From: Methylophilus sp. 13
GTDB taxonomy: Bacteria; Pseudomonadota; Gammaproteobacteria; Burkholderiales; Methylophilaceae
DNA: 64,000 bases
Assembly (NCBI RefSeq): GCF_015354335.1
Contig: NZ_JADKYR010000001.1
Span: 124,001-188,000, forward strand
Direction: 5' to 3'
The position numbers and the translations under genes are program-made. The number at the start of each line of letters is the position of its first letter. Position 1 is the stretch's first letter. Below, piece by piece: positions 50,742-53,658 of the stretch. Below the pieces are notes generated by a model, which worked only from the letters and a program-made list of their open reading frames with translations, was not told the DNA's origin and ran no database searches.

Positions 50742-51929
50742 TTAATAGGTTGTCAGCAATTGCAAATCGGCTTTCAAGTCCTCAACATGCTCAAGCCCAA
50801 CAGCTATTCTAACCAGGTTATCCTTGAGACCCGCCTGAGCCCGCGCCTCAGCGCTCACCCGGCTATGCGTGGTCGTGGCTGGATGGGTGATGGTGGATTT
50901 GGCATCACCCAGGTTCGCGGTAATCGAAATCAAGCGTGTGGCATCAATCAATGCCCAGGCGGCTTCCTGACCGGTTTGACCGGCGCGTGGTTTCACTTCA
51001 AAGCTGACGATGCCGCCGCCCAGTCGCTGTTGCTGCTGCGCCAGAGCATATTGCGGGTGCGAGCTTAACCCAGGATAAAATACACGTTCAACGCCAGGCT
51101 GTTGCTCCAGCCATTGCGCCAAAGCCGATGCACGCGCCGCATGGGCCTCCATGCGCACTTGCAATGTTTCCAGCCCCTTCACAAACACCCAGGCATTGAA
51201 CGCACTCATGGTCACCCCTGCCGTACGCAAGAAGCCATACACAGGCTCCATCAAGGCTTTACTACCCAACACTGCCCCGCCCAGCACCCTCCCCTGTCCA
51301 TCGATATATTTGGTAGCGGAATGAATCACAATATCCGCGCCCAATTTAAGCGGTTGCTGCAAGGCTGGTGTACAAAAACAATTGTCTACCGCCAGATAAG
51401 CACCTGCGGCATGCGCAATCGCTGCCAGTTTGGCAATATCCCCAATCTCGGTTAGCGGGTTAGATGGCGTTTCAGCAAAAAACAGTTTGGTATTCGGCTG
51501 GATGGCCGCTTGCCAGGCATCAAGATCCGTTAAGGAAACCAGCGTCACCTCCAAACCCCAGCGCTTGAGGATGTTGGTGAACAACTGCACGCTAGTGCCA
51601 AAAATACTGCGTGACGCCACCACATGATCACCTGCACTGCACATCCCCATGATGCAAGCCAGAATGGCAGACATGCCACTGGCAGTCGCCACGCATTGTT
51701 CGGCGCCTTCAAGTGCGGCCAGTTTATCCTGAAACATGGTGACGGTCGGGTTTGTAAAACGGGAATAAATATTACCTGGCTCGGTGCCGCCAAAACGTGC
51801 TGCCGCTTGCGCTGCATTTTTAAAGCGAAAACTCGAGTTTAAAAACAGCGCCTCTGAGTTTTCGCCAAACTCGGTGGTTAAGGTGCCAGCACGCACCGCC
51901 AGCGTTTCCAAATGGTATTGATCGTTCAT
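50742..51929 (-). CDS. metZ: O-succinylhomoserine sulfhydrylase
   Basis: MetZ makes homocysteine from an O-acyl-homoserine and sulfide in methionine synthesis. The 395-residue protein belongs to the Cys/Met PLP family: SRFTNPTVTMFQDKLAALEG, ATASGMSAI and the PLP lysine in HSATKYIDGQGRV. The C-terminal VSAEARAQAGL is also typical. A GAGGAAG ribosome site precedes ATG 51929. It is controlled by its own SAM-II riboswitch, described separately, not by the purF operon alone. Confidence 0.92.
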   Translation of the reverse strand: MNDQYHLETLAVRAGTLTTEFGENSEALFLNSSFRFKNAAQAAARFGGTEPGNIYSRFTNPTVTMFQDKLAALEGAEQCVATASGMSAILACIMGMCSAGDHVVASRSIFGTSVQLFTNILKRWGLEVTLVSLTDLDAWQAAIQPNTKLFFAETPSNPLTEIGDIAKLAAIAHAAGAYLAVDNCFCTPALQQPLKLGADIVIHSATKYIDGQGRVLGGAVLGSKALMEPVYGFLRTAGVTMSAFNAWVFVKGLETLQVRMEAHAARASALAQWLEQQPGVERVFYPGLSSHPQYALAQQQQRLGGGIVSFEVKPRAGQTGQEAAWALIDATRLISITANLGDAKSTITHPATTTHSRVSAEARAQAGLKDNLVRIAVGLEHVEDLKADLQLLTTY

Positions 51930-51961
51930 ACTTCCTCAAACTTCTGTCCGCAAACGGACGG

Positions 51962-51999
51962 CAATAAAAAACCCGTTTCAGCATTGCGCTAAAACGGGT
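51962..51999 (-). terminator. Riboswitch-controlled terminator before metZ
   Basis: A 12-bp stem (ACCCGTTTTAGC at 51999-51988 with GCTGAAACGGGT at 51982-51971, one T-G pair, loop GCAAT) is followed by TTTTTTATT. It lies about 33 nt before metZ and is the regulated expression platform. Confidence 0.92.
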
Positions 52000-52002
52000 C
52001 TT

Positions 52003-52087
52003 TGGGCTCTCGCTTTAGCAGTATTTATAATGCGCCCGCAAGCTGAGTTTGGCTTCGTTTAAAGTTCGCCACTCAAATCAGCGCAAT
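52003..52087 (-). ncRNA. SAM-II riboswitch aptamer of metZ
   Basis: The leader carries the SAM-II (SAM-alpha) consensus: GCGCTGATTT, then CTTGCGGGCGC, then ATTATAAATACTGCTAAAGCG. GCGC at 52084-52081 pairs with GCGC near 52035-52032, and the GATTT/AAT and GCTAAA elements form the pseudoknot as in the known 52-nt SAM-II crystal structure. Here the first loop carries an extra hairpin, GAGT-GGC/GCC-AA-ACTC, at about 52044-52074. The 3' strand GCTAAAGCG (52019-52011) can pair with CGTTTTAGC, the first arm of the terminator, over 9 bp with one G-T. Thus bound SAM would free the terminator and stop metZ transcription. Confidence 0.92.
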
Positions 52088-52090
52088 TTC

Positions 52091-52119
52091 ATTAAACGCC
52101 TTTTAAAGTAGGCTGTCAA
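52091..52119 (-). promoter_or_regulatory. Sigma70 promoter of the metZ riboswitch
   Basis: A consensus -35 TTGACA (52119-52114) and -10 TTTAAT (52096-52091) are separated by 17 nt. The -35 lies 4 nt after the purF stop. Transcription would begin about 52084, at the first base of the aptamer. Confidence 0.85.
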
Positions 52120-52122
52120 GTC

Positions 52123-53658
52123 TTACTCGACACCCACCAAATCCGTTGATAACAAGTTCAGATCCAGCTGGGTGGTAGAGTTTGGCGGCAACTGTTTTTT
52201 ACTCATGTCACTGCGGGCAGACTCAATACGATTCAAATAAGCGGCGTCAATGTCGCCGGTCACGTATTTGCCATCAAAGCAACTGCAATCAAATTCAGTC
52301 ATGTGCGGATTGGATTTGGTAATGCTTTCACGCAAGGCGTCCAGATCCTGGTAAATCAAGGCATCTGCACCGATTTCAGCGCAAATCTCTTCATCGGTAC
52401 GGTTGGTTGCCAGCAATTCATGGCGGCTGGGCATATCAATGCCATACACGTTAGGATAACGCACCGGTGGCGCAGCTGAGGCAAAGTAAACCTTGTTTGC
52501 GCCCGCATCGCGCGCCATTTGCACGATTTGCTGTGAGGTGGTGCCACGTACAATCGAGTCGTCTACCAGCAAGACGTTTTTGCCTTTGAATTCAATCCCG
52601 ATTGGATTCAACTTCTGGCGCACGGATTTCTTGCGCAAGGCCTGACCTGGCATGATGAAGGTACGGCCAATATAGCGGTTTTTAATAAAGCCCTCGCGAT
52701 AATCCAGACCCAAGGCAATACCTAGTTGCAACGCACTTGGACGGCTGGTATCAGGAATCGGAATCACGACATCAATCTGTTTATCGGCCCATTCGCGTTT
52801 AATTTTTTCTGCCAGCAAGGTCCCCATGTCCAGACGGGTCTGGTAGACAGACACGCCATCAATCACAGAGTCCGGGCGAGCCAGGTAGACATATTCAAAA
52901 ATGCAGGAAGTCAGCTTGGCATTTTCGGCACATTGGCGGCTGCACATATTGCCATCCATATCAATAAACACGGCCTCACCAGGCTCAACATCACGCACTA
53001 GCGTAAAGCCCAGCACATCCAGTGCCACGCTCTCGGAAGCCACAATATACTCGGTGCCTTTTTCTGTTTCCTGCTTGCCGATGACCAGCGGACGGATGCC
53101 ATGCGGATCGCGGAACGCCAGCAGCCCGAAATTAGCAATCATGGCGACCACGGCATAGGCACCTTTACAACGCCTGTGTACACCGGCCACCGCATCAAAC
53201 ACCATATCACTATTTAACAGGGCATTTTTAGAGGTGCTTTCAATTTCGTGTGCCAAGACATTCAACAACACTTCAGAGTCTGAATTGGTATTGATATGAC
53301 GCAGGTCTTGACGGAACATTTCTGACTTCAACTGCTCGGAGTTAGTGAGGTTACCGTTGTGACCCAACACGATGCCAAATGGTGAGTTGACATAAAAAGG
53401 CTGGGCTTCTGCCGCACTAGAGGAACCCGCGGTTGGATAACGGACATGCGCGATACCCACATTACCAACCAGGTTACGCATGTGGCGCGTATGAAAGACG
53501 TCTTTCACCAGGCCATTATTTTTATGCATATGGAAGGTATTGCCATCACAGGTCACGATGCCAGCGGCATCTTGACCACGGTGCTGTAAGACCAGCAATC
53601 CGTCATACAACAACTGATTCACCGGGTTCTTGCCTACAATACCGATAATTCCACACAT
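52123..53658 (-). CDS. purF: Amidophosphoribosyltransferase
   Basis: PurF makes phosphoribosylamine from PRPP and glutamine, the first step of purine synthesis. The 511-residue enzyme begins MCGIIGIVGK, with the nucleophilic Cys2 of the Ntn glutaminase domain; the phosphoribosyltransferase domain has the LLVDDSIVRGTTS PRPP loop. No N-terminal propeptide precedes Cys2, as in E. coli. It follows cvpA by 33 bp, a common gene order. The metZ promoter lies immediately past its stop. Confidence 0.97.
   Translation of the reverse strand: MCGIIGIVGKNPVNQLLYDGLLVLQHRGQDAAGIVTCDGNTFHMHKNNGLVKDVFHTRHMRNLVGNVGIAHVRYPTAGSSSAAEAQPFYVNSPFGIVLGHNGNLTNSEQLKSEMFRQDLRHINTNSDSEVLLNVLAHEIESTSKNALLNSDMVFDAVAGVHRRCKGAYAVVAMIANFGLLAFRDPHGIRPLVIGKQETEKGTEYIVASESVALDVLGFTLVRDVEPGEAVFIDMDGNMCSRQCAENAKLTSCIFEYVYLARPDSVIDGVSVYQTRLDMGTLLAEKIKREWADKQIDVVIPIPDTSRPSALQLGIALGLDYREGFIKNRYIGRTFIMPGQALRKKSVRQKLNPIGIEFKGKNVLLVDDSIVRGTTSQQIVQMARDAGANKVYFASAAPPVRYPNVYGIDMPSRHELLATNRTDEEICAEIGADALIYQDLDALRESITKSNPHMTEFDCSCFDGKYVTGDIDAAYLNRIESARSDMSKKQLPPNSTTQLDLNLLSTDLVGVE

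Follow-up and report, generated by a model that had tools for sequence, protein, structure and literature searches.

A probable SAM-II riboswitch with a terminator switch ahead of metZ in Methylophilus sp. 13, and its relation to the metXZ element of beta-proteobacteria

We analysed a 64,000-nt stretch of DNA from the methanol-consuming bacterium Methylophilus sp. 13 (hereafter the window), in which purF and metZ lie on the minus strand; both genes were assigned through NCBIfam equivalog models and both scored above cut-off. The purF stop ends at position 52123 and the ATG of metZ is at 51929, and the whole element described here is situated between them on the minus strand. Read from purF to metZ, it comprises a promoter, a SAM-II aptamer whose first loop carries an additional hairpin, and a 12-bp terminator, with the following features:

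52123–53658, minus strand: purF, the upstream neighbour, given as context (TIGR01134, 544.6 bits, cut-off 350)
52091–52119, minus strand: promoter TTGACA-17-TTTAAT, read from the sequence; it begins 4 nt past the purF stop (TTGACA 52119–52114, TTTAAT 52096–52091)
52080–52085, minus strand: P1 5′ strand TGCGCT; the P1 pairs covary
52075–52079, minus strand: GATTT, equivalent to G8 A9 U10 U11 U12 of SAM-II (pocket, within loop L1), conserved in all 62 leaders
52045–52074, minus strand: extra L1 hairpin, GAGT-GGC, a 14-nt loop and GCC-AA-ACTC; 7 pairs, kept in 20 Methylophilaceae leaders
52038–52041, minus strand: TTGC, equivalent to U20 U21 G22 C23, which gives the P2 pseudoknot its 5′ strand, conserved in all 62 leaders
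52031–52036, minus strand: P1 3′ strand GGCGCA, from P1 covariation
52020–52030, minus strand: loop L3 TTATAAATACT, carrying A-minor adenines A33 and A35–A37, from reading of the window and leader conservation
52011–52019, minus strand: GCTAAAGCG, the P2 3′ strand (G42–A47 and GCG) or, alternatively, the antiterminator 5′ strand, from leader conservation and folding
51971–51999, minus strand: intrinsic terminator hairpin, 12 bp, 5-nt loop, −18.3 kcal/mol; arms ACCCGTTTTAGC (51999–51988) and GCTGAAACGGGT (51982–51971)
51966–51970, minus strand: terminator T-run, from the sequence
51937–51934, minus strand: metZ Shine-Dalgarno GAGG, outside aptamer and terminator
50742–51929, minus strand: metZ, O-succinylhomoserine sulfhydrylase, the putative regulated gene (NF006003, 689.7 bits, cut-off 522)

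A 9-bp pairing is possible between GCTAAAGCG and CGTTTTAGC (51996–51988), which is part of the terminator 5′ arm. The original prediction had put four parts into this junction, namely a promoter starting 4 nt after the purF stop, the core of SAM-II, a hairpin in its loop and a terminator; all were recovered at those places on the minus strand, and the lengths and spacings given with them, including the 12-bp terminator stem and the 9-bp competing pairing, hold in the sequence. The leader folds with a z-score of −3.2, much of which comes from the terminator included in the folded stretch. A simple promoter/terminator scan listed neither this promoter nor this terminator: the former was missed because the scan demands A as the second letter of the −10 box, the latter probably because the T-run is consumed by A-T pairs that lengthen the stem. 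Between the terminator and the Shine-Dalgarno sequence (51946–51959, minus strand) there is also a small hairpin, GTCCG-TTTG-CGGAC, and a resembling one is visible by eye in four other loci (L031, L033, L034, L049).

At gathering cut-offs, no Rfam family matched anywhere in the 64-kb window, nor in 20 metZ loci, and SAM_alpha (RF00521) gave no match at E ≤ 0.001 in the whole genome. Under permissive settings, the 281-nt leader reached 21.3 bits with RF00521 (cut-off 36) and 14.8 bits with SAM-II long loops (RF01726, cut-off 44). Being below the curated cut-off, it would get no listing in the RF00521 entry today; this cut-off is a property of the database entry, not a feature of the SAM-II class. 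RF00521 ranked the leader first among 11 matches in the 3.1-Mb genome (21.3 bits and E 0.02, vs. 16.9 bits and E 0.33 for the next). At the same loose threshold (E up to 10) matches occurred in all 14 control genomes too, and this first rank is by itself weak, a lead and not a proof. Rfam includes a SAM-V family, which was absent from the three families matching the leader at E ≤ 10. Among 300 genomes of the same order, 51 had an RF00521 match above the cut-off and 136 had one at E ≤ 0.001, and one genome of the same family reached 27.6 bits (E 1.7e-4). Because of these order-level results and those of the lineage models given below, we judge the silence of Rfam in the window and in the 20 metZ loci to be a limit of sensitivity.

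For comparison we used 80 metZ loci with named organisms, the best 80 of 394, whose leaders were read for recurring blocks; the best six of these are Methylophilus species with 90–94% identity. A letter pattern common to SAM-II, P1-GATTT-loop-TTGC-R-P1′-loop-GCTAAA, recurs in these leaders, and the element was found in 63 of the 80. It is whole in 62, which are the basis of all counts of 62; the remaining locus (L053) is cut inside the element and was left out. Among the 17 loci with no match, two (L043 and L093) end before the leader. In SAM-II, U10–U12, U20–C23 and G42–A47 are described as fully conserved, a role is also given to G8, and the triples are G8-C23-G42, U11-U21-A45 and U12-U20-A46 (PMC3764141). 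The pocket nucleotides G8, U10–U12, U20–C23 and G42–A47 are all present in the window leader and in 62 of 62 metZ leaders, a count that overstates independence, as leaders and model rows share ancestry. This identical pocket suggests that SAM is the ligand of the metZ leader.

Two covariance models were built. R1 was made from 28 leaders (alignment A1), none labelled Methylophilaceae and nine of them (L141–L149) found with RF00521; R2 was made from 19 metZ leaders at loci identified through protein homology, likewise without any labelled Methylophilaceae and without any obtained through RF00521. From 42 unique beta/gamma instances, A1 took 28, without near-duplicates, forms with a long L3 or the second copy in L149, and a Methylophilaceae alignment, A2, holds 20 of 24 instances (L006, L013, L046 and L047, with a different L1, were left out). 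The SAM-II-like letter pattern with at least five P1 pairs served to select the rows of A1, A2 and A3, so that R1, R2 and the P1 counts lean towards SAM-II; even so, the conserved blocks are plain in the raw metZ leaders when these are read directly.

P1 forms 5 or 6 of its 6 pairs in all 62 leaders, with a mean of 5.66 vs. 1.7–3.5 for slid pairings, in a set that was itself found with a P1-containing model. In A1, changes on both sides occur at three of the six P1 pairs. When the whole A1 structure was compared with 500 shuffles, the observed number of pairs changed on both sides was reached in 1, the percentage paired in 27 and the covariation score in 24; every one of the 500 reached the observed number of further pair types. 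The metZ set shows C-G/U-A and G-C/A-U exchanges in P1; at pairs 2 and 5 they are carried by 11 leaders each, apparently a single clade (Pandoraea). For P2, UUGC and GC-U-AA are complementary in all 28 A1 rows and all 20 A2 rows with the four core pairs invariant, and P2 gives no covariation support because these pairs never vary. The L3 adenines described as gripping P1 in SAM-II are A33 and A35–A37 (PMC12434664). L3 measures 11 nt in 48 of the 62 leaders, and A33, A35, A36, A37 and U38 are invariant in those 48; it is longer in the other 14, the adenines being scored in the 11-nt form only. Extra L3 sequence between P1 and GCTAAA, in place of an L1 hairpin, was seen in L077, L079 and L101 and likewise in the Pandoraea loci L083, L084, L087–L091, L094, L095, L098 and L099. 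In these the loop spans 18–41 nt instead of 11, and a hairpin is possible by eye.

The L1 hairpin of the window has 97.8% of cells paired in the 20 Methylophilaceae leaders of A2, with 2 pairs changed on both sides. Of 500 shuffles of the whole A2 structure, none reached the count of cells changed on both sides, 129 reached that of pairs with changes on both sides, and 432 that of further pair types, so that this hairpin has moderate support from covariation. Leaders differ in the length of the insert between GATTT and TTGC, from 8 to 34 nt, and the long L1 hairpin thus stands at one extreme of a range. It is an extension specific to the lineage and lies outside the pocket. By reading, CUC of this hairpin may pair either inside the hairpin or, extending P2, with GAG of the GCGAG tail, a tail that is invariant in the 20 A2 rows. 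An alternative hairpin, GCUGAUUUG with CAAACUCAGC, which appears in the minimum-energy fold and would hide L1 without SAM, was considered and is weakened by the wider beta-proteobacterial consensus GCGCC.

In a search of the window, the leader, which is not in either model, scored 48.5 bits (E 3e-12) with R1 and 49.9 bits (E 1e-12) with R2, the E-values of both models being rough by the tool's own statement. A lack of any significant SAM-II covariance score had been named beforehand as evidence against the prediction; such a score is indeed lacking at the Rfam cut-off, and the models from neighbouring lineages reverse this outcome. Over the whole genome R1 gave one good match, the leader (E 1.6e-10), followed by a match with E 0.09. 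A weak match of R1 and R2 inside the metZ frame (51802–51855; 14.8 and 15.8 bits) was taken as a coincidence in coding sequence; matches were also present at a similar place in L033 and L039. Both models were then applied to 32 loci above the RF00521 cut-off in genomes outside this class, probably Alphaproteobacteria. R1 matched 32 of 32 (29 below E 0.001) and R2 31 of 32 (at E up to 0.38, 26 below 0.001), in both cases at the RF00521 places. R1 matched 222 of 300 same-order genomes at E ≤ 0.001, its places agreeing with those of RF00521 in the rows compared (e.g., 2692134 and 2692140 in G439 C1), as well as 135 of 150 same-family genomes. Across the phylum (249 genomes) R1 matched 42 and RF00521 49; R1 is a lineage model and not a better general model of SAM-II. 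These results indicate that this branch is continuous with recognised SAM-II. A letter-pattern scan of 100 family genomes, used as a lead only, detected the element amid many chance matches, and further Methylophilus genomes carry it.

Terminators were called with a fold-based finder in the 63 metZ loci plus the window. A hairpin with a T-run 3′ of the aptamer was present in 64 of 64 leaders (mean −17.7 vs. −9.4 kcal/mol in shuffled sequences), and in 62 of these related leaders the GCUAAA strand can pair over 6–9 bp with the terminator 5′ half, vs. 16% of shuffles. The two exceptions, L081 and L105, have aptamer and terminator and no antiterminator of this type. Among 30 order-level loci (the top scorers of R1) a terminator was found in 29 and the antiterminator overlap in 16; among 38 RF00521-derived loci the numbers were 34 and 12, with L135, L138 and L139, which do not show the letter pattern, standing outside the 38. 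The overlap is less general outside the metZ set and is therefore a feature of the lineage, not of the class. When folding of the growing RNA was modelled, in a scheme that cannot represent the pseudoknot, the antiterminator had a probability of 0.78–1.00 with the 3′ end at 51990–51975, and the terminator one of 1.00 from 51972 onward. The full leader at equilibrium always folds the terminator (−18.3 vs. −8.7 kcal/mol for the antiterminator). Since the terminator wins at equilibrium, read-through would need a kinetic trap, and by this modelling the choice must fall during transcription, before the terminator 3′ arm emerges.

Upstream of the aptamer, TTGAC is found within 60 nt in 51 of the 62 metZ leaders, the mean score of the best promoter-like match is 8.6 of 12 vs. 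6.6 in shuffles, and in most leaders a −10-like box ends 5–8 nt before P1. This spacing is much like that described for the SAM-II/metA element (Corbino et al., PMC1273637), and transcription is expected to start at about 52084, i.e., at P1. purF is located upstream in 60 of the 63 loci with the element, and 15 loci with purF upstream lack it. Control of metZ had been predicted to be independent of purF. The conserved promoter agrees with this part of the claim; support for independence is partial, as purF read-through RNA would cross the same aptamer and terminator. In two loci the element was seen far from metZ, at 678 nt (L107) and 625 nt (L053), and in L107 the stretch just upstream of metZ resembles another gene by eye.

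Taken together, we consider it highly probable that the metZ leader acts as a SAM-II riboswitch and turns metZ off by terminating its transcription. The component elements, how they are conserved and which alternative pairings they allow were observed; the OFF logic and a kinetic choice between two hairpins we infer. RNA polymerase would start at or just before P1. At low SAM, the 3′ strand GCUAAAGCG would be free as CGUUUUAGC emerges, the 9-bp antiterminator would form, and transcription would read through into metZ. At high SAM, the aptamer would close as an H-type pseudoknot with GCUAA locked in P2; the terminator 5′ arm would then be free to form the 12-bp hairpin, and transcription would end at about 51966. 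The SAM-II identity, the OFF logic through terminator and antiterminator, and metZ as the target, all put forward in the original prediction, fit the comparative evidence.

Part of this evidence could also be read as a SAM-II aptamer followed by a constitutive terminator, for example one acting on purF read-through, or as control that is mainly translational. At equilibrium the hairpin greatly exceeds the antiterminator in stability, L081 and L105 show no overlap, and with purF upstream in 60 of 63 loci the hairpin would end purF read-through RNA too. Against a constitutive terminator stand the overlap of the two pairings in 62 of 64 leaders vs. 16% of shuffles and the promoter ahead of P1, which would make little sense there; the position of the metZ Shine-Dalgarno GAGG (51937–51934) outside aptamer and terminator speaks against translational control. 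We regard this explanation as very improbable and retain the SAM-II termination switch as the preferred one.

SAM-II with terminators in beta-proteobacteria has already been reported (Barrick and Breaker, 2007). The SAM-II/metA element (RF00521; Corbino et al., 2005, PMC1273637) shares with the window P1, the pocket letters, P2 with a bulged U, the L3 adenines, a promoter a few nt before P1, a downstream terminator and a methionine gene. It differs in P1 (GCGCY in the window, CGUGGY in most RF00521 sites of other classes), and the window has in addition the L1 hairpin and a P2 3′ strand built into the terminator switch. SAM-II long loops (RF01726; Weinberg et al., 2010, PMC2864571), listed for Bacteroidetes and marine sequences, likewise combine a SAM-II core with added first-loop structure; here the score is 14.8 bits against 44, and the loop pairing of the model is unlike the GAGT-GGC hairpin. 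The closest description is that of the metXZ element in Leyn et al. (2014, PMC4239095), where it was called “novel” and was reported for 35 genomes of beta-proteobacteria, among them three Methylophilales that have it before metZ. It lies upstream of metX or metZ and has a pseudoknot of conserved boxes, a terminator and a proposed antiterminator; no effector is given there, and conserved region 3 has no partner. We infer that region 3 corresponds to the 5′ strand of P2 around TTGC, the partner of which is hidden by the bulged U44. By the traits of that description, a beta-proteobacterial metX/metZ leader with pseudoknot and terminator, 63 of our 80 metZ loci (the best 80 of 394) belong to it. 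By gene, taxon and architecture, metXZ and the metZ-leader branch of SAM-II are very probably the same element. The leader had been predicted as SAM-II with an extra hairpin; the element is present, and that reading was made unaware of the 2014 paper, which very probably described it.

A rival explanation follows from the same paper, namely that metXZ is a separate RNA class with SAM-II-like letters and another ligand of the methionine pathway. There, the SAM_alpha scan was positive only in Rhizobiales and Rhodobacterales, and metXZ was called novel with a different second conformation; in our data the metZ leader does not reach the Rfam cut-off. However, all 62 leaders keep the pocket boxes and the P1/P2 layout of SAM-II, and the L3 adenines are kept in every one of the 48 whose L3 measures 11 nt. 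Moreover, scores form a continuum in which 51 of 300 order genomes exceed the SAM_alpha cut-off, and the beta-proteobacterial models recover SAM-II sites of other classes. A separate class is thus very improbable; the element belongs to a known class, in a branch mostly missed by the database model.

A trans-acting plus-strand small RNA, as the Rfam family Bp2_287 (RF02424) would imply, is suggested by matches of 15.2 bits on the window plus strand and 55.1 bits (E 1e-11) on the antisense strand of a Pandoraea metZ leader (L084, 2310–2453, minus strand), and by the listing of Bp2_287 among verified sRNAs (Mohd-Padil et al., 2012, PMC3521395) and as expressed in the Burkholderia cepacia complex (table of a 2024 review, PMC10987360); it was rejected as having next to no chance of being correct, as both matches are below the cut-off of 70, the window promoter, terminator T-run and downstream gene are all on the minus strand, the RF02424 consensus as read from the match is the reverse complement of GATTT-TTGC-GCTAAA, a terminated leader would likewise appear as a short RNA, and Mohd-Padil et al. 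themselves proposed Bp2_Cand287 as a cis-acting methionine element. Bp2_287 shares with the SAM-II leader the intergenic places before metX or metZ (PMC3521395), and differs in that the opposite strand was modelled and typed as an sRNA gene; strand and type of RF02424 probably need review. In a literature search covering titles, beginnings of abstracts and selected passages, no text was found that equates metXZ or Bp2_287 with SAM-II. The present analysis adds both the probable link of metXZ to SAM-II and the match of RF02424 to its opposite strand.

The same RNA precedes metZ, metX, metK and metH elsewhere. NCBIfam models applied to the first 218–230 residues of downstream proteins confirmed one case of each (L143 metX, L165 metK, L170 metH, L145 metZ), and by eye the downstream gene is metK in L178, L185, L147 and L148 and metH in L181; the other downstream genes in these loci, further metX cases among them, were likewise named by eye. 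Three genomes carry tandem SAM-II-like pairs: L186 (679–735 and 820–872, plus strand), L187 (281–337 and 449–501, plus strand) and L188 (139–197 and 37–94, minus strand). With RF00521 the two copies score 41 and 25 bits in L188, and 34–35 and 19.5 bits in L186 and L187. By eye, a terminator follows the first element and none is obvious after the second, which in L188 is close to a start codon; these pairs look like two layers of control.

The interest of these results is in a testable ligand for an orphan element, not in a new mechanism: metXZ gains a likely ligand, and a question open since 2014 becomes directly testable. They also bear on the sensitivity of the Rfam SAM-II model in this order, with 51 of 300 genomes at the cut-off and 136 at E 0.001, vs. 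222 with the lineage model. In a tentative wider reading, somewhat less likely than not, beta-proteobacteria would harbour a large and largely uncatalogued branch of SAM-II, split among sub-threshold SAM_alpha, the orphan metXZ and a wrong-strand sRNA family; besides metX and metZ, this branch would control metK and metH, and its Methylophilaceae members may have acquired a second switching arm through the alternative CUC pairing of the L1 hairpin.
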